NCBI GenBank assembly: GCA_002786355.1
Contig: PGCO01000003.1
Coordinates: 372,001-436,000 of the forward strand
Direction: 5' to 3'
Source: Sediminibacterium sp. FEMGT703S
GTDB taxonomy: Bacteria; Bacteroidota; Bacteroidia; Chitinophagales; Chitinophagaceae
DNA length: 64,000 nt
Part shown: piece after piece, positions 26,413 through 36,397 of the stretch
Position numbering within the stretch: position 1 is the stretch's first letter
How the letters are laid out: each line of letters opens with the position of its first letter
Position numbers and translations under genes: made by a program
The notes under the pieces: generated by a model
Told to the model about the DNA's origin: nothing
The model's input: only the letters and a program-made list of their open reading frames with translations
The model's database searches: none

Positions 26413-26718
26413 CTATAAATTTGTCACTTCGACCACAGCATCCAAATTGAGGGTTCCATGTATATGCGGAAAAACTTCATTAATTGAACCCGCCAATTCA
26501 AATACAAGGGGTCTCTCTACCTTATCCTTTTGAATAGTCAACTTGATTAATCCTGTTTGACCCTTATAATACCTGTCTAATACTCCATCTACTTGATCGG
26601 CTGTGCTACAATGCATAAAACCTTCTGAAGCCAAGGTATCTGCTTCATAAAAACCCTTTTGTAAAGCTTCTTCCCACTTAGCTTGCGTGGTGATATGATA
26701 AATTAATGCTCCGTCCAT
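26413..26718 (-). CDS. DUF952 family protein
   Basis: 101 residues, the typical DUF952 length. Motifs include IYHITTQAKWEEALQKGFY at the N-terminus, EGFMHCSTADQV in the middle, and FPHIHGTLNLDAVVEV near the end. The family has a small ART-like fold but no established activity. It is the last gene of the aromatic operon, with its ATG only 1 bp after the aroC stop. Its link to the pathway is by position only. Confidence 0.85.
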   Translation of the reverse strand: MDGALIYHITTQAKWEEALQKGFYEADTLASEGFMHCSTADQVDGVLDRYYKGQTGLIKLTIQKDKVERPLVFELAGSINEVFPHIHGTLNLDAVVEVTNL

Positions 26719-26719
26719 A

Positions 26720-27718
26720 TTAAAATACTCTTTTAAGTTGTTGTTCCAATAACATTAAATCGGTTATGACCATCGCTGTTACTGCTTCTAAAATTACTGG
26801 CACTCTTAATGCAATGCACAAATCGTGCCGCCCTTTAATTGAAAAATTTTCTTGTTGCTGGGTTTCCCAGTTATAAGAAAACTGCTCTTTAGGGGTAGAG
26901 GATGTAGGTTTTATAGCCACTCTAAAGAGCAATTCATTCCCATTGGTTATTCCCCCAACAATCCCACCAGCATGATTGGTTGTTGTAGTGCCCGCTGCAT
27001 TTATAATCGAATCATTATGTTCAGACCCAAACATATTTGCAGCTGCAAAACCTGCCCCGAATTCAATCCCTTTTACGGCCGGTATGGCAAAAACAGCATG
27101 ACTGATAAGCGATTCTACTGAATCAAAAAAATGTTCCCCTAAACCTATTGGCAACCCAGTTGCTGAACAAGCCACAATTCCCCCAACACTATCTTTTGCA
27201 TCAATTGCTTTTTGCAATCCTTTATCTAGATCTGATTCTCCAGCAATAGAATCAATGGTTGATTGAATCTGTATCTGTGATTTGGCTAATAATTTTTTAG
27301 CGACGACCCCTGCTGCAACTAAACAAACAGTTAGTCTACCACTAAAATGACCTCCTCCCCTAAAATCTTCAAAGCCCCCATATTTTTGGTGCGCAGTAAA
27401 ATCTGCATGACCCGGTCTAGGTATAGCCCTATGCTTTTCGTAATCTTGACTTCTGGTATTATTATTTTCGAATAAGATGGTGATTGGAGCACCTGTTGTA
27501 TTTCCATTGAATAACCCACTTTTAAAAATGGGCAAATCGTCTTCTTTTCGGGGTGTCGTTCCTTTTTGTACTCCCCCTTTTCTTCTTTCTGTATCAATAA
27601 TGAAATCTTCAACACATAAAGGAAGACCAGCCGGACAACCATCAATGATTAATCCAACGGAAGGGCCATGAGACTCGCCGAAAATTTGTACACGAAATAG
27701 TTTTCCAAATGCGTTCAC
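26720..27718 (-). CDS. aroC: Chorismate synthase
   Basis: 332 residues. It converts 5-enolpyruvylshikimate-3-phosphate to chorismate with reduced FMN. Signatures: GESHGPSVGLIIDGCPAG at the N-terminus, RRKGG..KGT..KEDD (flavin/substrate site), RPGHAD and FRGGGHFSGR in the middle, and a C-terminal GRHDLCIALRVPVILEAV. It is slightly shorter than the ~360-residue norm, but all blocks are present. Gaps are 23 bp to aroA upstream and 1 bp to the DUF952 gene downstream. Confidence 0.97.
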   Translation of the reverse strand: MNAFGKLFRVQIFGESHGPSVGLIIDGCPAGLPLCVEDFIIDTERRKGGVQKGTTPRKEDDLPIFKSGLFNGNTTGAPITILFENNNTRSQDYEKHRAIPRPGHADFTAHQKYGGFEDFRGGGHFSGRLTVCLVAAGVVAKKLLAKSQIQIQSTIDSIAGESDLDKGLQKAIDAKDSVGGIVACSATGLPIGLGEHFFDSVESLISHAVFAIPAVKGIEFGAGFAAANMFGSEHNDSIINAAGTTTTNHAGGIVGGITNGNELLFRVAIKPTSSTPKEQFSYNWETQQQENFSIKGRHDLCIALRVPVILEAVTAMVITDLMLLEQQLKRVF

Positions 27719-27741: not shown

Positions 27742-29037
27742 CTACGATTCAGTCATAACGATTACACCCAATTGTTGCAAATGGTTGTAAAAAGCAGGAT
27801 AAGACTTATTGATTGCCTCCGCTGCTTCAATAGTTACAGCACCGTCAGCATTTAATGCCGCAATAGCTGTAGCCATTGCAATTCTATGATCATGATGAGA
27901 ATGGACTGTTGCTTGTTTAATTGAACCCATTATCAATCCATTCCTTAATCCTGAAATTAGCATCAAATTGTCTTGCAACTTTATTTCAACACCTAATTTA
28001 CTAAATTCTTTTTGTAAACTATCACTTCGATTACTCTCTTTATATGCTAGTCTATGAACTCCTTCAATGACCGTGGTACCTTCGCAAAATGAAGCCAAAG
28101 CAACCAATGGAGGAAATAAATCGGGGCAATCAGTTGCGTTAAAATGAAATGCTTTCAAAGGCAATGACCGCACGTCAATTTGATGTTCTTGAACGGAGAG
28201 TCCTGCTCCAGCATCAGATAATGCTTGTAATATAGCTTTATCTGCTTGGGTCGAAAACACATCCAACCCTTTCACTGTAATACCGCCTGCAATTGCTCCT
28301 GCTACTAATAAAAATGCAGCTCCACTCCAATCCCCCTCTACTTGGTATTCAACAGTTGCTTTTTTTTCTTTTTGATCAGATTTTAAAAAACTGAAGGAAG
28401 CATAATTATTATTGCGAACAACTGTCCCAAATGCTTCCATTACTTGCAAAGTGAGGTCTATATATGGCTTACTTTTTAAATCGTTCACTGTAATGGTAAC
28501 AGCATCAGCTTCAGCAGCACCAAAAGCCATTAATAGTCCAGTTAAAAATTGAGAGCTCAAAGAGCCATCAATTGTAATATTATTTGGTTTAAGTGGCCCT
28601 TGAATAGTGATTGGCAAAAACCCATTGGTTGAGTTAACTTGAACACTCAACTGCGGGAGTACTTCATCAAAAAAATGCATGGGGCGTTTTAATAAACTTC
28701 CGGTACCACTAATTTGTAAGCTTGTATTGCTTAACGCAGCAATTGGCGTAAACATTCTAATTCCCAATCCACTTTCACCACAATTTAGTTGATGATCAAT
28801 AGGCCTAACGCCCTTAGATTGAATGGTTAAACTTCCATCTTCATTGCTGATTACAATTGCGCCCAGTTTTGTAATCATTTCTAATGCGGCCAAATCATCA
28901 AAGCTATTCCCTGGATTTAAAATATGTGACTCCCCGTGATGCAACAATGCAGCTGCGCATGCTCTTTGCATGCAACTTTTACTGGCATTGGCATGTAAAG
29001 TACCTTGTATATTGGATGGTTGAATAATAGCAATCAT
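27742..29037 (-). CDS. aroA: 3-phosphoshikimate 1-carboxyvinyltransferase (EPSP synthase)
   Basis: 431 residues, normal length. It condenses shikimate-3-phosphate with phosphoenolpyruvate. Motifs: SKSCMQRACAAALLHHGES near the N-terminus (the K-S/QR substrate block), LNCGESGLGIRMFTPIAAL (normally NxGTxxR), DGSLSSQFLTGLL (SSQ), and a C-terminal DHRIAMATAIAAL. The NCGESGLGIRM form, in place of NAGT, is of the divergent type seen in Bacteroidota. It follows aroB with a 17-bp gap. Confidence 0.95.
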   Translation of the reverse strand: MIAIIQPSNIQGTLHANASKSCMQRACAAALLHHGESHILNPGNSFDDLAALEMITKLGAIVISNEDGSLTIQSKGVRPIDHQLNCGESGLGIRMFTPIAALSNTSLQISGTGSLLKRPMHFFDEVLPQLSVQVNSTNGFLPITIQGPLKPNNITIDGSLSSQFLTGLLMAFGAAEADAVTITVNDLKSKPYIDLTLQVMEAFGTVVRNNNYASFSFLKSDQKEKKATVEYQVEGDWSGAAFLLVAGAIAGGITVKGLDVFSTQADKAILQALSDAGAGLSVQEHQIDVRSLPLKAFHFNATDCPDLFPPLVALASFCEGTTVIEGVHRLAYKESNRSDSLQKEFSKLGVEIKLQDNLMLISGLRNGLIMGSIKQATVHSHHDHRIAMATAIAALNADGAVTIEAAEAINKSYPAFYNHLQQLGVIVMTES

Positions 29038-29054: not shown

Positions 29055-30074
29055 TTAAAACTGTTTAAAAATTTCTTGTAGTTGAACCAATAATAAAGGT
29101 TGCACAACTGCTTTTCCTGTTTTTTGCAAAAGAATATAGTTAATTGAATCTGCTTGTCTTTTCTTGTCTTTCAATAAAATATTGAACGCTTTTTTAGCAT
29201 CAAAATCAGCTACAGTTGGCAAACCATAATGATGCAACAATTTGATAACCCTTTCTGCTTCTTTATAAAATTTTAATTGCTGAGACATTAATGCAGCATA
29301 TGTCATTCCTATACTAATAGCTTCTCCATGACTTAATTGATACATATTTTCAATTGCATGGCCCAAAGTATGTCCAAAGTTCAGAAGCTTTCTGTCTCCC
29401 TTTTCAAATTCGTCTTGTTGAACAACTTTTATTTTTATTAAAGCATTGCGTGTAATCAAGTTTGCAAGTAATTCGGGATTTCTTTTGTACTTAGGGATGC
29501 TATTTTGCTCTAATTCAATAAACATTTTTGAATCCTTAATGCAAGCATGCTTTATGATTTCTGCAAAACCATTTTTCCACTCTGCTAAAGGCAATGTTTT
29601 TAATAAACTATAATCATAAAGTAGAAAAGAGGGCTGTCTAATTAATCCAACCATATTTTTATACACGCCTACATCAATACCGTTTTTACCGCCAATTGCA
29701 GCATCCACCATCGCAAGTAAAGAAGTAGGAATATAACCTACTTCTATCCCTCGCATATAAATTCCTGCAACATATCCTGTAATATCTGTGATGACTCCTC
29801 CGCCAAAACCAATTAAAGTAGTTTGCCTATCAGCACCCAATAAAATTAGTTGGTCAATAATTACATCAACCGTTTGTTGAACTTTGAATTGCTCACCAGG
29901 CTTTAAAACAATGGTATTAAATCCCTTTAATTTTCTTTTATATGCTTGAAATAAGTTTTCGTCTGTGATAATAATTGCTTTCTCTTTTGAAACAATTTTT
30001 TCTAACAGGCTAAATGCTGCATCAAAATAAAAAAGGGTCTCTTTTCCAGAGAATAAAAAACGCTTCTTTTGCAT
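29055..30074 (-). CDS. aroB: 3-dehydroquinate synthase
   Basis: 339 residues. It turns DAHP into 3-dehydroquinate using NAD and a divalent metal. Visible features are GGGVITDITGYVAGIYMRGI (NAD site and glycine loop), PTSLLAMVDAAIGGKNGID (the conserved D-x-x-x-GGK-x-G), an EIIKHACI metal ligand block, and NFGHTLGHAIE. It lies between the DAHP synthase-mutase gene (1 bp gap) and aroA, in pathway order. Confidence 0.96.
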   Translation of the reverse strand: MQKKRFLFSGKETLFYFDAAFSLLEKIVSKEKAIIITDENLFQAYKRKLKGFNTIVLKPGEQFKVQQTVDVIIDQLILLGADRQTTLIGFGGGVITDITGYVAGIYMRGIEVGYIPTSLLAMVDAAIGGKNGIDVGVYKNMVGLIRQPSFLLYDYSLLKTLPLAEWKNGFAEIIKHACIKDSKMFIELEQNSIPKYKRNPELLANLITRNALIKIKVVQQDEFEKGDRKLLNFGHTLGHAIENMYQLSHGEAISIGMTYAALMSQQLKFYKEAERVIKLLHHYGLPTVADFDAKKAFNILLKDKKRQADSINYILLQKTGKAVVQPLLLVQLQEIFKQF

Positions 30075-30075
30075 A

Positions 30076-31161
30076 CTATGAATTCATAATCTTATTCTGA
30101 TGATTGATACTTTCCATATGTACCGCATCAAAATACTTAGTGATAAATTCTTGACTAAGACCAAGCTGTCCTCCTTTTACGAAAGCACGCTCTAAGATGG
30201 CATTCCAACGATTGGTTTGCAATATGGTAATATTATTGTCCTTTTTATACTGTCCAATCTTATCGGCCACTTTCATACGTTGGCCTAGTAGCTGCAACAA
30301 TTCATCATCTAACTGGTTAATTTGCGCGCGCATTTTATCCATTTGAATATGCAACTCTTCAGAAATAATATCTTCTTTACGCCAAATCATCGTGTCAATC
30401 ATAGACCCTAATACTGCAGGAGTGATTTGTTGTTTAGCATCACTCCATGCATTATCGGGATCTATATGACTTTCTATAATTAATCCATCAAAATCTAAGT
30501 CAATTGCTTTTTGTGCAACTTCTTGTAGAATATCTCTTCTTCCACAAATATGGGAAGGGTCGTTAATCATCAGCATTTCAGGAAACCTGCGCTTCATTTC
30601 AATGGCTAAGTGCCACATTGGTGCGTTGCGATATTCTGTATTTCCATAAGAGCTAAAGCCTCTATGGATTAATCCAATATGCTTAATACCTGCTTTCGCA
30701 ACACGTTCTGCAGCCCCAATCCATAACTCTAAATCAGGATTAATTGGGTTTTTTATCAAAACAGGAACATCAACTCCTTTTAAAGCATCTGCAACATCCT
30801 GAACACTAAATGGATTCACCGTTGTTCTGGCTCCTATCCATAAAACATCTACACCAAAATGCAAAGCATCTTCCACTTGCTTACCCGTTGCTACTTCTAC
30901 CGCTACTGGCAATCCAGTCAACTCTTTTGCTTTTTGTAACCAAGGCAAACCCTTTGTGCCAACTCCTTCAAAACTACCAGGTCTTGTTCTAGGCTTCCAT
31001 ATACCTGCACGGAGGATATCTACTTTTCCTGTTGCGGCAAGTTGACTGGCCGTTGATAACACTTGCTCTTCTGTTTCTGCACTGCAAGGCCCAGAAATAA
31101 TCAATGGCCTTTTTGCAAGAATGGTATTAATATTAGCTTCTTGCTGTAAAGTATGTTCCAT
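30076..31161 (-). CDS. Bifunctional DAHP synthase / chorismate mutase
   Basis: 361 residues in two parts. Residues about 1-260 form an AroA-beta/KDO8PS-type DAHP synthase: ISGPCSAETEEQ, LRAGIWKPRTRPGSFEG, LWIGARTTVNPFSVQ, IKNPINPD, LIHRGF, INDPSHICGRRD, IESHIDPD. Residues about 275-355 are a type II (AroQ) chorismate mutase with DKMRAQINQLDDELLQLLGQRMKVADKIGQYK. It joins the first reaction of the shikimate pathway with the branch reaction to prephenate, so the mutase domain may also give feedback control. It sits between the helicase gene and aroB. Confidence 0.95.
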   Translation of the reverse strand: MEHTLQQEANINTILAKRPLIISGPCSAETEEQVLSTASQLAATGKVDILRAGIWKPRTRPGSFEGVGTKGLPWLQKAKELTGLPVAVEVATGKQVEDALHFGVDVLWIGARTTVNPFSVQDVADALKGVDVPVLIKNPINPDLELWIGAAERVAKAGIKHIGLIHRGFSSYGNTEYRNAPMWHLAIEMKRRFPEMLMINDPSHICGRRDILQEVAQKAIDLDFDGLIIESHIDPDNAWSDAKQQITPAVLGSMIDTMIWRKEDIISEELHIQMDKMRAQINQLDDELLQLLGQRMKVADKIGQYKKDNNITILQTNRWNAILERAFVKGGQLGLSQEFITKYFDAVHMESINHQNKIMNS

Positions 31162-31187: not shown

Positions 31188-32897
31188 TTATCTACGCCCT
31201 CCTCCACTATCTGCATCATTCATACGAATGCTTCTTCCTTTGTATTTCTTACCATCCAAAGAACGAATCATTTGCTGTGCTGCAGACTTTTCAATTTCAA
31301 TCCAACTATTCATGTCTTTCATATCAATTCGCCCTAACACGTCCTTCTTTAAATCGCTCATGTCTAAAACAAATTGTAAAAAACTCGCTTTATAAAAACC
31401 ATCTTTGGTTCCAAGGTTAACAAATAACCTACTGTACCCTCCGCCTGATTTATACTCTTTTCTACTATCGCCGCGACCCGCATCTCTTCCAGCGTCTCTT
31501 CCGCTTTCTCTGCGTGCAGATCTATTGTCTCCTCGATCATTAGGATCTCTCTTTGCACTTCTATCGCGCTCTCTAATATTTAAATCTTCAGAGTTTTCAT
31601 AGTACTTTAAGAATCGGTCAAATTCCATCGCAGCTACTCGCTTTAACACATCTTCTTTACTTACCTCAGCAAATTTTTCTGCTAACATAGGTACATAGGT
31701 TTCATAATCTCCATGACTAATATCAGCAGACAAAAGCTTGTCCATAAAAGAGAAGAATTGCTTTCTACAAACATCTTTTCCTGAAGGAATATCTAGCTTA
31801 CTAAAATGACAATTATTGATTCTTTCAATTTGCTTCAGCTTATAAGTTTCTTTTGCATGCACGATAGAAATACAAATTCCATGGTTGCCAGCTCTACCTG
31901 TACGACCACTTCTATGCGTATAAATTTCCACGTCATCAGGTAATTCAAAATTGATTACATGGGTTATCCCTTGCACATCAATACCTCTTGCTGCAACATC
32001 CGTTGCAATTAATAATTGGAGGCTTTTATCCCTGAACTGGCCCATCACTTTATCACGCTGACCTTGTGTAAGATCGCCGTGTAATGCATCAATATCATAC
32101 CCTTCTCTGGTTAAACGCTCTGAGATTTCTTGTGCATCTAACTTGGTTCTCGTGAAAATAATTCCATAAATACCTGGATTAAAATCGATGATCCGCTTTA
32201 ATGTTTCATAACGATGATGAGCAGTTGTAACATAGTACTGATGATCAATACTTTTATTTGCAGTATTTACCTTACCCACTGTTACTTCTTTGGGGTCTTT
32301 CATGTAACGCTTGCTCACTTTTCTAATTTCAGGTGGCATGGTTGCACTAAATAACCAAGTACTATTTCGTTGAGGAGTGTTTTTTAAGATAAACTCAATA
32401 TCATCTTGAAAACCCATGTTCAACATTTCATCGGCTTCATCTAATACTACATAACTGATTTGTTCTAGATTGATCGCTTTACGCTCAATCAAATCAATTA
32501 GTCTACCTGGAGTAGCTACAACAATTTGTACGCCTCTTTTTAGATCACGGATTTGTAACCCGATAGAAGCTCCTCCATAAACTGCAACAACCGAAATACC
32601 GGTCATATATTTCTTAAACAGCTCAATCTCTTTCACAATCTGCAAACACAATTCGCGTGTTGGACAAACCACTAATGCTTGTGGGTACTTAGCTGCTGCG
32701 TCTATAATGTGTAACAAGGGTAATCCAAATGCTGCTGTTTTTCCCGTGCCGGTTTGCGCCAAACCGATAAAATCAGTCGTTCCGCTCAATAAGACCGGTA
32801 TCGCCTGTTCCTGAATTGCCGTTGGGTTCACATACCCCAACTCTGTGGTTGCTTGAATTAAACGCTCGTCAATTCCCAACCCTTCAAATGTAATCAT
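31188..32897 (-). CDS. DEAD-box RNA helicase with DbpA/CsdA-like RNA-binding tail
   Basis: 569 residues. The two RecA domains carry AQTGTGKTA, DEADEMLNMG, SAT, RGIDVQG and HRSGRTGRAG. A low-complexity Arg/Asp/Gly linker (about 435-485, with RDAGRDAGRGDSRK) leads to a C-terminal RRM-like domain with GGGYSRLFVNLGTKDGF and IEIEKSAAQQMIRSLDGKKYKGRSI, as in DbpA/CsdA. Such helicases remodel rRNA or unfold mRNA in the cold. It lies inside the aromatic operon on the same strand but has its own TACCTTTG box, so it may be expressed separately and read through into the aro genes. Confidence 0.94.
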   Translation of the reverse strand: MITFEGLGIDERLIQATTELGYVNPTAIQEQAIPVLLSGTTDFIGLAQTGTGKTAAFGLPLLHIIDAAAKYPQALVVCPTRELCLQIVKEIELFKKYMTGISVVAVYGGASIGLQIRDLKRGVQIVVATPGRLIDLIERKAINLEQISYVVLDEADEMLNMGFQDDIEFILKNTPQRNSTWLFSATMPPEIRKVSKRYMKDPKEVTVGKVNTANKSIDHQYYVTTAHHRYETLKRIIDFNPGIYGIIFTRTKLDAQEISERLTREGYDIDALHGDLTQGQRDKVMGQFRDKSLQLLIATDVAARGIDVQGITHVINFELPDDVEIYTHRSGRTGRAGNHGICISIVHAKETYKLKQIERINNCHFSKLDIPSGKDVCRKQFFSFMDKLLSADISHGDYETYVPMLAEKFAEVSKEDVLKRVAAMEFDRFLKYYENSEDLNIRERDRSAKRDPNDRGDNRSARRESGRDAGRDAGRGDSRKEYKSGGGYSRLFVNLGTKDGFYKASFLQFVLDMSDLKKDVLGRIDMKDMNSWIEIEKSAAQQMIRSLDGKKYKGRSIRMNDADSGGGRR

Positions 32898-32948: not shown

Positions 32949-33788
32949 TTACTTAAGTATTCTCCTTATTCCATTGGCATTTTCAATCAATTCTTGTAAA
33001 TATTCATAGTTCTCTTTTTCTAAACAAGACTTGAATTTTCTTAATTGACTAATATGCTCGTTTAACACATCCAACACATTGTCTCTATTCTGCATAAAAA
33101 TGGGCACCCACATTGCTGCATTACTCTTTGCAAGCCTTACCGTACTCTCAAATCCACCACTTGCTAGTTCAAAAATGGCATCTTCTTCGCGTTCTTTCTC
33201 TAAAACAGTATTGGCCAAGGCAAAAGAAGTAATATGTGATATATGACTAATGTAAGCCACATGCATATCATGGGCTGTTGATTCCATATATAAAATATGC
33301 ATTTCTAATAAGCCATATATTTTCTCAACCATTTCTAAAGCGTTTTGATCAGAATGAACTTTATCGCAAATAACGGTCGCCTTTTTACTGAAAGCCCCTT
33401 GAATAGCTGCAGTTGGTCCACTATTTTCAGTTCCCCACATGGGATGGGTTGCAACAAATCTGCCCCTATTAGGATGATTTTTGACTACTTCTACAATTTT
33501 TGATTTTGTAGAACCAACATCAAATACCACTTGATTACCCACTTTATCTAAAATAATGGGCAGCACTTTTTCTGCCGCATTAATGGGTGTTGCAATGATG
33601 ATCAATGAAGATTTTTCAATTGCAACAGCTAATGGCAAGCTTTCATGAATCAATCCTAATTCGATTGCTTTGGCTGCATGCGCAGGATTATTCTCTACTC
33701 CAATTACATGAGTGGCCAAACCTTTTTCTTGTAGTGCAATAGATAGTGAACCTCCTATTAATCCGATCCCAACAATTGTAATAACCAT
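32949..33788 (-). CDS. tyrA: Prephenate dehydrogenase
   Basis: 279 residues. It oxidatively decarboxylates prephenate to 4-hydroxyphenylpyruvate for tyrosine. The NAD-binding motif is GIGLIGGSLS at the N-terminus. Further blocks are IIATPINAAEKVLP, DVGSTKSKIVE, THPMWGTENSGP (with the conserved His and Gly) and a C-terminal helical dimer domain with HDMHVAYISHISHI. There is no ACT domain, so control is likely at expression. It is 9 bp from the aminotransferase gene. Confidence 0.95.
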   Translation of the reverse strand: MVITIVGIGLIGGSLSIALQEKGLATHVIGVENNPAHAAKAIELGLIHESLPLAVAIEKSSLIIIATPINAAEKVLPIILDKVGNQVVFDVGSTKSKIVEVVKNHPNRGRFVATHPMWGTENSGPTAAIQGAFSKKATVICDKVHSDQNALEMVEKIYGLLEMHILYMESTAHDMHVAYISHISHITSFALANTVLEKEREEDAIFELASGGFESTVRLAKSNAAMWVPIFMQNRDNVLDVLNEHISQLRKFKSCLEKENYEYLQELIENANGIRRILK

Positions 33789-33797
33789 ACTCGTTTT

Positions 33798-34964
33798 TTA
33801 ATTTTTCTTTTGCGCATTTATTCGTTGAATGGCTTCTTCAAATTTGGTGACGCTTCCACATAAACTTACTCGTATAAATTGATTTCCGGCTGACCCAAAA
33901 ATTCCACCAGGCGTAATAAAAACATTGCTATTGTACAAAACTTGATCACTCAATTCATATCCATCTTTGACTCCTTCAGGTATTTTTGCCCAAACAAACA
34001 TGCCAACTTGATTGGTACTGTATTTGCACTGAATGGTATCTAATAATTCAAATACTTTTTCTCTTCGCTTGGCATAAATTTCATTAACCGAATCATACCA
34101 ATCATTGCCTAAACCCAATGCAGCAACAGCAGCATGTTGAACTGGCAAGAACATTCCACTATCCATATTGCTTTTAAAAGTAAGTACTTCATTAATCCTA
34201 TCTTCTGCACCGCATAGCATCCCTACTCTCCACCCAGCCATATTTTGGCTCTTACTTAATGAATTCAATTCTATAGCTGTTTCCATAGCACCTGGAATAC
34301 TTAACAAACTCATGGGTGCATCATTTAAAATAAAGCTATATGGATTATCATGACATATTAGAATTTGATGTTGCTTACCAAATGCAATTAACTTTTCAAA
34401 CAGTTCAATACTTGGTTTTTTTCCTGTAGGCATTTGAGGATAATTCACCCACATCAATTTCACTTTACTTAAATCACTTACTTCTAAAGCTGCAAAATCG
34501 GGTTCCCAATTATTTTGTTCTGTTAACTCAAAATAAACAGGGGTTCCACCTGCCAACTTTACTGCACTAGTATAAGTGGGATAACCTGGATTAGGAATCA
34601 ATACCTGATCGCCTTCATTTAAATAAGTCATGCAGATATGCATAATACCTTCTTTACTCCCTAATAAAGGCAAGATTTGGGTATCAGGATTTAAGCCAAC
34701 TTGGTATTGGATTTTATACCATTCCGCAATTGCATTTCTTAATGCAGGAACCCCTTTGTAGGATTGATAGGCATGTGTATTCGCTAAGCCAGCTTGATCT
34801 TGTAACACTTTAATTACAGAGGGATGCGGAGGAAGATCAGGACTGCCAATTCCTAAATTGATAATATTTTTACCAGCTTTTTTAAGTTGTTCTATTTCCC
34901 TTAGTTTCTGCGAAAAATAGTACTCTCCAATCCCTTCTAATCTTGTTGATTTTGCAATTTGCAT
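33798..34964 (-). CDS. Class I PLP aminotransferase, probably for aromatic amino acids or prephenate
   Basis: 388 residues. Fold type I aminotransferase: NLGIGSPDLPP at the N-terminus, YQSYKGVPALRNAIA, LPLLGSKEGI, NPGYPTYTSAV, NYPQMPTGKKP (usually NYPNNPTG), CHDNPYSF (D206 for the ring N), and the Schiff-base Lys K238 in SLSKSQNMAGWRVG. It lies between pheA and tyrA, so the natural role is the last transamination to phenylalanine and tyrosine. Sequence alone cannot exclude LL-diaminopimelate or aspartate specificity, which the family also has. Confidence 0.88.
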   Translation of the reverse strand: MQIAKSTRLEGIGEYYFSQKLREIEQLKKAGKNIINLGIGSPDLPPHPSVIKVLQDQAGLANTHAYQSYKGVPALRNAIAEWYKIQYQVGLNPDTQILPLLGSKEGIMHICMTYLNEGDQVLIPNPGYPTYTSAVKLAGGTPVYFELTEQNNWEPDFAALEVSDLSKVKLMWVNYPQMPTGKKPSIELFEKLIAFGKQHQILICHDNPYSFILNDAPMSLLSIPGAMETAIELNSLSKSQNMAGWRVGMLCGAEDRINEVLTFKSNMDSGMFLPVQHAAVAALGLGNDWYDSVNEIYAKRREKVFELLDTIQCKYSTNQVGMFVWAKIPEGVKDGYELSDQVLYNSNVFITPGGIFGSAGNQFIRVSLCGSVTKFEEAIQRINAQKKN

Positions 34965-34966
34965 AA

Positions 34967-35851
34967 TTATCCTTTTTCCAGTTTTCCTTTTTTATAAATA
35001 CCAAACAACTTTACATTATTTGTGAGTGTTTCAATTTTCCTCATCATATTTTCAAATTGTTTTAGTTGATCAAATTCCATGTCTGCATAAAATCCATATT
35101 TAAAATGACTGCCAGGAATCGGCATACTTTGAAGCTTACTCAAATTCACTCCAGTTTTTGCTACTTCGGTTAGCACTTTTGCTAAAATTCCTTTGGAGTG
35201 ATTGGTTTGAAAATAAATAGATGCTTTATTAGCCCCCACAATAGGTTTTGCTTCTTTTGCTCTTTGCAATACTAAAAACCGCGTGATATTGTTTTTTTGT
35301 GTTTGTATATCTGGTGCTAAAATTTCCAAATCAAATAATTCAGCAGCCAGTTTACTTGCAATAGCAGCAATATGTTTACTCTTATGCTGGTGAACATTTT
35401 TAGCACTTAAAGCAGTATCTTCTGTTTCTATTAATTTATATGAATGCGATTCTAAAAAATCGAGACATTGTAAAATAGCCATGGGATGACTATGCACTTC
35501 TTTAATATCTGTAAGCCCCACTCCTTTATTAGCTAATAAATTTTGGCTAATGGATAAATAAACTTCCCCCACTACTTTCAAATTTGCTTTTTGCAATAAG
35601 TTATAGTTAGGTAAAATGCTGCCGGCAATAGAGTTTTCAATGGCCATTACTGCACCAGCGGAAAGAGTTGAATCTAATGTTTGCTTAATCAACTGCCTAA
35701 AAGAAGCACATGGAATCACTTCCACTTCTTTACCAAAAAAATGTCTGGCAGCAACTTGGTGAAAACTTCCTTCGTATCCTTGAATACAAATACCTGCAGG
35801 TGCAGTTGCGCTATTTTTTTGAATGGATTTCGATTCTTTTAGTTTATTCAT
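34967..35851 (-). CDS. pheA: Prephenate dehydratase with ACT domain
   Basis: 294 residues. It converts prephenate to phenylpyruvate. Catalytic-domain landmarks: GYEGSFHQVAARHFFG, AVMAIENSIAGSI, EVHSHPMAILQC, DTALSAKNV and NNITRFLVL (with the essential Thr). The C-terminal ACT domain (about 205-290) has NHSKGILAKVLTEVAKTGVNLSKLQSMPIPGSHFKYGFYADME, where phenylalanine binds for feedback inhibition. It is the first structural gene after the attenuator leader, and the aminotransferase follows 2 bp later. Confidence 0.95.
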   Translation of the reverse strand: MNKLKESKSIQKNSATAPAGICIQGYEGSFHQVAARHFFGKEVEVIPCASFRQLIKQTLDSTLSAGAVMAIENSIAGSILPNYNLLQKANLKVVGEVYLSISQNLLANKGVGLTDIKEVHSHPMAILQCLDFLESHSYKLIETEDTALSAKNVHQHKSKHIAAIASKLAAELFDLEILAPDIQTQKNNITRFLVLQRAKEAKPIVGANKASIYFQTNHSKGILAKVLTEVAKTGVNLSKLQSMPIPGSHFKYGFYADMEFDQLKQFENMMRKIETLTNNVKLFGIYKKGKLEKG

Positions 35852-35863
35852 TGTGGTATAGAT

Positions 35864-35892
35864 AAAAAAAATCCCGGCTATTTGCCGGGACC
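35864..35892 (-). terminator. Attenuator terminator before pheA
   Basis: On the minus strand, TCCCGGC (35884-35890), loop AAATA and GCCGGGA (35872-35878) form a perfect 7-bp stem followed by a U-run of eight (35864-35871). It lies 20 nt after the stop of the leader ORF and 12 nt before the pheA ATG. Its 5' arm with flanking GG (35884-35892) can instead pair with 35929-35940 inside the leader ORF. Confidence 0.85.
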
Positions 35893-35911
35893 TATATGTT
35901 ATTGAAAACTT

Positions 35912-35998
35912 TTATGCTTTTGCAAACTGGACCCGGCTCCTTTTCATAAAGAAGAAATAATAAAAAGAATAAAACCAGTTGTTAATTGCCGTTTGCAT
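35912..35998 (-). CDS. Aromatic-rich leader peptide of the phe/tyr/aro operon (attenuation)
   Basis: A 28-codon ORF, ATG at 35996-35998, TAA at 35912-35914. Codons 8-17 read WFYSFYYFFF: nine aromatic residues of ten, five Phe, three Tyr and one Trp. This is what a PheL-type leader peptide shows. When charged tRNA-Phe or tRNA-Tyr is scarce, a ribosome stalled here would free the segment GGAGCCGGGTCC (35929-35940) to pair with the terminator's 5' arm, letting transcription enter pheA. A competing hairpin is visible: AACTGG (35975-35980) with CCAGTT (35925-35930), extended by TGCAAAC/GTTTGCA. Basic C-terminal residues follow the aromatic run. The ORF is too short for usual gene callers. Confidence 0.85.
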   Translation of the reverse strand: MQTAINNWFYSFYYFFFMKRSRVQFAKA

Positions 35999-36005
35999 GA
36001 TATTT

Positions 36006-36013
36006 CAAATATA
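36006..36013 (-). promoter_or_regulatory. -7 promoter box TATATTTG for the leader and aromatic operon
   Basis: A full TAnnTTTG match ending 7 nt before the leader ATG. TTTG occurs 16 nt further upstream (36030-36033), somewhat close for a -33 element. The leader message would have almost no 5' untranslated region. The whole stretch 35852-36214 holds this promoter, the leader ORF, the attenuator, and the terminator of the next gene. Confidence 0.6.
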
Positions 36014-36096
36014 AGGATTGATTGGAAAGCAAAAAAATAATTTGATAAATATTAAACTAAGATTAGTTATTTACACAGACTCTTATAAAAAAATAA

Positions 36097-36120
36097 GCCC
36101 CTCCGTGGAAACGGAGCGGC
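36097..36120 (-). terminator. Terminator after the small Ala/Thr-rich lipoprotein gene
   Basis: The stem GCC-C-CTCCGT / ACGGAG-C-GGC has one C-C mismatch and loop GGAA. On the minus strand it is followed by TTATTTTTTT. It separates the lipoprotein transcript from the aromatic operon promoter. An 8-bp inverted repeat (ATCTGTTG 36154-36161 / CAACAGAT 36199-36206) lies in the same 3' region. Confidence 0.75.
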
Positions 36121-36214: not shown

Positions 36215-36397
36215 TTACTTCTTAGTGCTATCAACAGCAGGAGCAGCAGCAGTAGTATCTACAGTTGCAGCAGTAGTGTCAACAGTTGCAGCAGCAGTGT
36301 CAACAGTTGTTGCAGTAGAATCAGCAGCAGCTTCTTTGTTTTCTCCAGCGCAAGATGCGAATACGCCTAATGCTAAAACGAATAACAATTTTTTCAT
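36215..36397 (-). CDS. Small Ala/Thr-rich lipoprotein
   Basis: 60 residues. A signal peptide with lipobox FASC puts the lipidated Cys at about residue 16. The mature part is low complexity: three TVDT(T/A)AA-type repeats and a short KK end, so about 44 residues of Ala, Thr, Asp and Val. Similar short lipoproteins occur in Bacteroidota with no known role. The signal peptide and its own terminator support a real gene despite small size. Confidence 0.7.
   Translation of the reverse strand: MKKLLFVLALGVFASCAGENKEAAADSTATTVDTAAATVDTTAATVDTTAAAPAVDSTKK

Follow-up and report, generated by a model that had tools for sequence, protein, structure and literature searches.

A Candidate Phe/Tyr Leader-Peptide Attenuator Upstream of the pheA Operon in Sediminibacterium and Related Bacteroidota

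How might a member of the Chitinophagaceae adjust the synthesis of phenylalanine and tyrosine to their supply? The question is raised by a short ORF rich in Phe and Tyr codons that precedes pheA in Sediminibacterium sp. FEMGT703S, within a stretch of 64,000 nucleotides of contig PGCO01000003.1 which is called the window throughout. Attenuators of the PheL/TrpL type in Proteobacteria consist of a short ORF with cognate codons, an intrinsic terminator, an alternative pairing 3' of the control codons, and a cognate operon downstream. The original prediction, made from the letters of this DNA, was that pheA is preceded here by such a device. With high confidence, we interpret the region as a ribosome-mediated (leader-peptide) transcription attenuator whose signal is the charging of tRNA-Phe and tRNA-Tyr and whose target is the pheA-aminotransferase-tyrA-(helicase)-DAHPS/CM-aroBAC operon.

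Leader region and operon in the window

All parts of the candidate attenuator are encoded on the reverse strand (-). The leader peptide ORF (35912..35998, -) extends over 28 codons from ATG to TAA, encodes MQTAINNWFYSFYYFFFMKRSRVQFAKA and is kept in relatives. Its codons 8-17 (35948..35977, -) read WFYSFYYFFF and are assigned as control codons from the sequence and from codon constraint. Seven nucleotides separate the ATG from TATATTTG (36006..36013, -), a sigma-A -7 box of the form TAnnTTTG, whose position predicts a transcription start at 36001 (-) and a 5' UTR of 3 nt; further upstream, the sequence contains a TTTG (36030..36033, -) which we take to be a possible -33 element of the Bacteroidota promoter type. 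Segment 2, GCCGGGTCC (35929..35937, -), delimited by duplex energies, folding and partner swaps, is the 5' arm of the antiterminator and lies within the ORF, 10 nt 3' of the last aromatic codon, with the leader stop codon 14 nt past it. Segment 3, GGTCCCGGC (35884..35892, -), is common to terminator and antiterminator, and segment 4, GCCGGGA with the following T8 (35864..35878, -), provides the 3' arm of the terminator and its U-run; both were located by terminator scan and folding. The terminator consists of a 7-bp GC stem plus U8 and ends at 35864 (-).

ORF, aromatic run, box, terminator and antiterminator pairing are all found where the original prediction had placed them, the sequence having been checked base for base, and folding in two states, as it had proposed, yields both structures. 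The stretch 35910-35864 folds as the terminator at -16.5 kcal/mol, whereas 35945-35877, a segment that omits most of the terminator's 3' arm, folds as the antiterminator (six pairs, a mismatch, two pairs) at -17.8 kcal/mol; for either fold, 0 of 200 shuffles were as good. The leader ORF folded alone forms TGCAAAC/GTTTGCA and CTGG/CCGG helices, and here 8 of 200 shuffles were as good. Upstream of the leader, positions 36215-36397 (-) hold a small gene, for which no Pfam match was obtained and whose product of 60 residues begins like a lipoprotein and contains a repeat of Ala, Thr, Val and Asp; a terminator-like hairpin (36101..36116, -) is situated 3' of this gene and 5' of the leader promoter.

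The leader precedes a run of nine codirectional genes with intergenic gaps of 1-51 nt, consisting of pheA for prephenate dehydratase (34967..35851, -; PF00800), a class I/II aminotransferase gene (33798..34964, -; PF00155), tyrA for prephenate dehydrogenase (32949..33788, -; PF02153, PF20463), the gene of a DEAD-box RNA helicase with a DbpA RNA-binding domain (31188..32897, -; PF00270, PF00271, PF03880), a gene for DAHP synthase fused to chorismate mutase (30076..31161, -; PF00793, PF01817), aroB for 3-dehydroquinate synthase (29055..30074, -; PF01761, PF24621), aroA for EPSP synthase (27742..29037, -; PF00275), aroC for chorismate synthase (26720..27718, -; PF01264) and, as the last gene, one for a DUF952 protein (26413..26718, -; PF06108). 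Nine genes had been announced as an aromatic operon; their number and common direction stand, but by Pfam only seven of them are aromatic, the other two being those for the helicase and the DUF952 protein. Among the named matches of PheA, the best come from Sediminibacterium, with identities of 88 and 80%. Gene order, including the helicase gene, is kept in all five operons read from the genus, one of them lacking a DUF952 match in its stretch. Five more distant families contributed six stretches, of which five retain the order pheA-aminotransferase-tyrA-DAHPS/CM. Within the nine-gene run, the DEAD-box helicase gene is one of the better conserved; elsewhere in the family, other genera have it in one of the three operons read.

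Conservation, codon constraint and covariation

For a comparison with relatives, upstream regions of pheA were collected, the scan of contigs for PheA keeping the best 80 of 589 relatives. Under a lenient test (a short ORF upstream of pheA with at least 5 of 10 residues F, Y or W), a leader is found in 118 of 120 distinct stretches, each 150 nt or longer and drawn for the most part from genomes that carry the label of the window's family or from contigs with a similar PheA; in the two misses the contig before the match is merely 174 and 175 nt long. Under a stricter test (at least 6 of 10, ATG start, within 350 nt) applied to a wider set, 191 of 215 distinct stretches are positive, as compared to 2/215 on the reverse strand and 2.6/215 in dinucleotide shuffles. 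The aromatic-codon run upstream of pheA, named in the original prediction as a test of it, is kept in the family and beyond.

At order level, 136 genomes possess PheA, and 30 loci plus 70 further stretches were read, a sample which left out ten prepared stretches as well as other listed matches, namely additional members of f1, the family of the window, and those that were weak or partial. At phylum level, 257 genomes possess PheA, and 30 loci were read together with 50 stretches hand-picked for family coverage among the matches listed. Some species occur in both the whole-genome and the contig sets, and a few genomes were read twice; in the counts per family, every genome enters once. With families taken as labelled, leaders are present throughout f19 (9/9), f25 (24/24), f23 (7/7), f29 (2/2) and f31 (2/2), in 39 of 40 members of f18 and in five of five further members of f1, and in part of f28 (3/7) and f12 (5/14). 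No leader was found before pheA in f3 (0/5), f2 (0/1) and f14 (0/1). The device, proposed for the lineage of the window, extends beyond it to several further families, and its distribution has gaps: it was not found in 9 of 14 pheA-bearing relatives in f12, 4 of 7 in f28 and 5 of 5 in f3. One of the five positives of f12 (L209) is without a terminator in the terminator scan. Outside the class, 3 of 25 genomes have a leader. Three loci placed there (L146, L149, and L242) combine a high-scoring PheA with an F/Y leader, which suggests that pheA was transferred along with its attenuator or that these contigs are misplaced.

The codons of the run argue for translation. In the aromatic runs of f1, the in-frame ratio of TTY to TTR is 591:1, and shifting the frame brings it to 275:122 and 264:239; if the ten-codon window is set by its distance from segment 2 and not by content, the ratio is 457:1 versus 230:67 and 224:205 (93 leaders). 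To judge from these ratios, the aromatic run is under coding selection and does not reflect mere T-richness. The absence of in-frame stops (TAA/TAG) from the run is given by construction and carries no weight as evidence.

A terminator lies 3' of 201 of the 217 leaders; the same scan returned 51 on the reverse strand, because the hairpin is partly symmetric, and 0 in base shuffles. The antiterminator duplex has a mean of -15.1 kcal/mol, as compared to -7.0 kcal/mol after base shuffling, and in 154 of 191 leaders it was equalled by at most one of 60 shuffles, so that the conservation envisaged for the terminator and its competing antiterminator upstream of pheA is borne out. In 178 of 191 leaders, segment 2 begins 5-14 nt past the last aromatic codon. 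The seg2-seg3-seg4 pattern occurs once in the genome of the window and in 24 of 38 genomes of the genus, with 0 in the reversed control. In one relative, G035, pheA matches were obtained on two contigs (C12 and C29), and a separate copy of the attenuator pattern accompanies each of them.

Sequences of segment 2 vary by group, GCCGGG, AGGATTG, GGGACTT, and CGAGAC being among them, and their partners vary in step. Outside the family, 101 of 102 leaders pair more strongly with their own partner than with swapped partners on average, and in 38 leaders the own partner ranks in the top 5% of swaps, where 5 are expected; within the family, the own partner exceeds the mean swapped partner in 85 of 114 leaders only. 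The GC core of segments 2-4 is near-invariant in the family, and covariation of the core therefore rests on other families. A MAFFT alignment of the family (55 rows) had segment 2 one column apart in two row sets, and rows with five leading gaps were shifted by one column before counting. In this alignment, the terminator is paired in 319 of 328 cells and the antiterminator core in 272 of 328, although the core slid by one column is still paired at 0.67-0.68, and its 6 double-change cells compare with 1-9 for slid partners. For the inner helix GTTRA:TYAAC, which is weak in the window itself, 189 of 271 cells are paired (slid 0.18-0.38) and 20 are double-change cells as compared to 7-11 for slid partners. 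Covariation inside the family thus rests on the inner helix. Of the covarying pairs that the original prediction had called for, those between families are found, and within the family those of the inner helix, whereas the antiterminator core shows no excess there over slid partners.

Leaders of other specificities and tandem loci

Leaders of a similar build precede other biosynthetic genes in the genus. A His-run leader is found before hisG in 12 of 12 loci read (hisG being found in 13 genomes) and a WWW leader before trpE in 13 of 13. Both are present on contig C10 of the window's own genome, the His-run leader MIKSLHIHHHHMHPKG before hisG near 127 kb (L248) and the WWW leader before trpE near 121 kb (L268). 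By eye and unscored, most His and Trp leaders are followed by a GC-rich hairpin and then a T-rich stretch. A clear branched-chain leader precedes ilvD in 3 of 13 loci read (L272, L273, and L274); these leaders are rich in Ile, Val and Thr, each is followed by a GC-rich hairpin and a T-rich stretch, and no exact TAnnTTTG box occurs in the 35 nt before them. Ile/Leu/Val-rich ORFs before ilvD in L277, L278, and L281 were judged unspecific. Just 1 of 13 genomes of the genus has leuA (PF08502), with no leader there at threshold, and no Thr/Ile-rich leader precedes the homoserine dehydrogenase gene in 15 of 16 loci read, the sole match (L288) being discarded as unspecific.

In f18, 18 of 40 loci have two independent F/Y ORFs before pheA; the controls for such an ORF in the distal region gave 0/39 on the reverse strand and 4/390 in shuffled sequence. 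Two complete leader-terminator modules are present in 17 loci, every one of them labelled f18 (L172, L174, L179, L182, L183, L185, L187, L188, L189, L195, L206, L208, L212, L215, L216, L224, and L030). Other two-ORF loci were excluded from these 17, namely L013, with a single terminator for both ORFs, as well as L147, L164, L178, and L235. In L147 and L164, both of the f29 genomes read, two F/Y-rich ORFs precede pheA and one of each pair is without an above-threshold terminator. The first tandem module is preceded by an exact promoter box in 8 of 17 loci and the second in none of 17, a contrast suggesting that transcription reaches the second module by reading through the first. No tandem attenuators with the same signal appeared in the open-access PMC literature, among the matches listed.

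Mode of action, alternatives and significance

Counting second leaders of tandem loci, an exact TAnnTTTG box is found at most 30 nt before the start of 124 of 217 leaders, at 4-8 nt in 101 of these; a box with one mismatch precedes 35 more, and 58 of the 217 have neither kind within 30 nt. In random 30-nt windows of the same regions, the exact box occurs in 3.8%. In Flavobacterium psychrophilum this box is described as spanning positions -12 to -5 of the start site (PMC9723704). If this spacing applies, leaders with the box at 4-8 nt would have 5' UTRs between 0 and 4 nt long, and the window's leader one of 3 nt, so that the distance from box to ATG implies a nearly leaderless leader message. 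Very short 5' UTRs are rare in general: 5.5% are given as leaderless in F. psychrophilum (PMC9723704), and about 3.7% of 5' UTRs are under 10 nt in B. thetaiotaomicron.

The proposed course of events is as follows. Transcription would start about 3 nt before the leader ATG, which would bring the ribosome onto the message right at its 5' terminus. With Phe or Tyr in short supply, it would wait within codons 8-17 and leave segment 2 free to pair with the emerging segment 3; since this pairing would prevent formation of the terminator, RNA polymerase would enter the operon. With Phe and Tyr plentiful, the ribosome would pass segment 2 and reach the stop codon in the would-be antiterminator loop, whereupon segment 3 would pair with segment 4 and transcription would end at the U-run near 35864. 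What the sequences show are the parts and their conservation, the coding constraint, the mutually exclusive pairing and the covariation between families; the start site, loading and stalling of the ribosome, the direction and size of regulation, and its control by the supply of Phe and Tyr we infer.

The position of the stop codon distinguishes two forms of the device. Among 154 well-supported cases, the ORF stop lies 3' of the start of segment 2 in 126 and 0-7 nt before segment 2 in 27, with one outlier. The 27 cases resemble E. coli trpL, whose segment 2 is covered once the ribosome has reached the stop codon. In the family of the window, and in the window itself, the stop lies past segment 2, and a terminating ribosome would therefore, unlike in E. 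coli trpL, cover the core of segment 2 in part only; in this form, the ribosome that has arrived at the stop would occupy the loop of the antiterminator. A pause hairpin between AACTGG (35975..35980, -) and CCAGTT (35925-35930) had also been proposed. Both arms are present in the window, but they are not generally conserved, the close relatives L002 and L060 are without the second arm, and the leader ORF folded alone forms other helices in place of this hairpin. Region 1 offers region 2 a partner beyond chance expectation in 44 of 151 leaders with the level set at 5% and in 20 of 151 with 1%, and a narrower test recognizes a 1:2 hairpin in 32 of 154 leaders. Judged by these counts, the classical 1:2 hairpin would seem to be an optional feature, supported in a minority of leaders.

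Could the terminator simply belong to the upstream gene or act as a constitutive brake, with the F/Y ORF a chance product of T-rich DNA? The region is A+T-rich, runs of T yield Phe codons in whichever frame, and the upstream gene 36215-36397 has the same orientation as the leader; yet this gene has its own terminator-like hairpin (36116-36101), the ratio of 591:1 in frame is unlike that of the other frames, and segment 2 mimics the 3' arm of the terminator and, outside the family, changes together with segment 3. A chance ORF is also contradicted by the stricter leader test and the partner swaps, and we regard this explanation as extremely improbable. Still less credible, and close to inconceivable, is a metabolite riboswitch or T-box in place of a translated leader. 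These elements likewise work by a terminator/antiterminator pair, but no Rfam family (T-box, riboswitch or other) reached the gathering score anywhere in the window, and codon constraint together with runs of cognate codons of three specificities in one genus points to translation. A permissive scan gave 22 weak matches, which are not counted; Phe_leader (RF01859; 22.7 bits, cut-off 55) was among them, and both it and Trp_leader (RF00513; 20.3 bits, cut-off 41) scored below their thresholds. In eight relatives' loci, including the trpE loci L257 and L268, only Flavo-1 and a tRNA reached the gathering score; the Flavo-1 RNA (71.4 bits) lies in the pheA locus of an f25 genome (L151:3714-3791).

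The leader RNA and peptide of the S. meliloti trp operon act in trans (PMC7298713), which raises the prospect that the terminated RNA or the peptide of the present system, like peTrpL/rnTrpL, is mainly trans-acting and cis attenuation secondary. The C-terminus of the peptide, SRVxFxKA, is conserved in the genus; it is, however, encoded by segment 2 and the following stretch, so that RNA pairing accounts for its conservation, and in other genera the residues at the C-terminus differ while the pairing is kept. A mainly trans-acting leader is thus quite unlikely. There is a somewhat larger, still small chance that the signal is narrower or broader than assumed, with either Phe or Tyr sensed alone, or Trp sensed in addition to both. 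A Trp codon occurs in 94 of 234 leaders, the window's among them, and the operon includes common shikimate genes which are needed for Trp too. On the other hand, codons for both Phe and Tyr are present in 233 of 234 leaders, 140 of the 234 are without Trp, and trpE of the same genus has its own Trp-run leader. Attenuation in cis by a leader that reads charged tRNA-Phe and tRNA-Tyr remains the preferred reading.

The mechanism is of a known kind. Like PheL/pheA and TrpL/trp of Proteobacteria, the window combines an ORF of cognate codons, a terminator before the first gene, an alternative pairing and a cognate operon, and the conservation of aromatic run, terminator, antiterminator and operon in relatives speaks for the PheL/TrpL-type reading given originally. 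Unlike the proteobacterial systems, its leader would be nearly leaderless, its mixed Phe/Tyr run precedes an operon uniting pheA, tyrA and the common shikimate genes, segment 2 lies inside the ORF with the stop beyond, and the pause hairpin is not generally conserved. Earlier comparative work of Lopatovskaya et al. (2010), cited in PMC4833913, may cover Bacteroidetes. Among the matches listed, titles and openings of abstracts in the literature mention no Phe/Tyr leader in this group. The study of F. psychrophilum reports strong clues for leader-peptide attenuation at operons of amino acid biosynthesis and describes 5' elements at pheA and hisG which are shared with other Flavobacteriaceae and have no Rfam hits (PMC9723704). 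A 5' element of the same gene has therefore already been flagged in the same phylum; the parts of that paper considered here give neither the sequence of a leader peptide nor a model of the pairing, and they do not go beyond Flavobacteriaceae. The Bacteroid-trp RNA motif is a candidate RNA in Bacteroidetes (PMC2864571) whose name suggests a link to trp genes; it differs from the present case, in which no Rfam family reaches the gathering score. Leader ORFs transcribed without a 5' UTR are reported for trpL of S. meliloti (PMC7298713) and for leader peptides of Streptomyces lividans (PMC8079986), i.e., in other phyla and for amino acids other than Phe and Tyr. Like the tandem loci of f18, mgtCBR of Salmonella has two leader ORFs in one leader RNA, but these read different signals, ATP and proline (PMC3641672), whereas both f18 modules are of the Phe/Tyr type and each has its own terminator.

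What is unusual, then, are the near-leaderless build deduced from the promoter box and the tandem duplication in the related family f18. A model of attenuation describes synchronization by ribosome-dependent melting of a pause hairpin as a strict requirement for hyper-sensitive attenuation (PMC1183508), and a near-leaderless design with an optional pause hairpin, as put forward here, would bear on this theory. As a tentative proposal, about which we are more doubtful than confident, loading of the ribosome at the 5' end of the RNA, and not a pause hairpin, might time translation relative to transcription in part of the Bacteroidota: with the leader ORF at the RNA 5' end, ribosome loading would itself be the timer. 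According to the same proposal, the two attenuators of f18 act in series, read-through would be the product of two independent decisions and, if this is true, the tandem response to starvation would be steeper than that of any single attenuator; the tandem loci represent a natural experiment on gain.

Gene annotation could take up the short leader ORFs, and a library of RNA families the element. For this group of Bacteroidota, in which the parts of the literature considered merely hint at leader-peptide attenuation, codons and pairing now provide evidence for attenuation of Phe/Tyr synthesis and, by leader runs, also of His and Trp synthesis. Sediminibacterium would very probably switch on the aromatic pathway only when Phe or Tyr is scarce.
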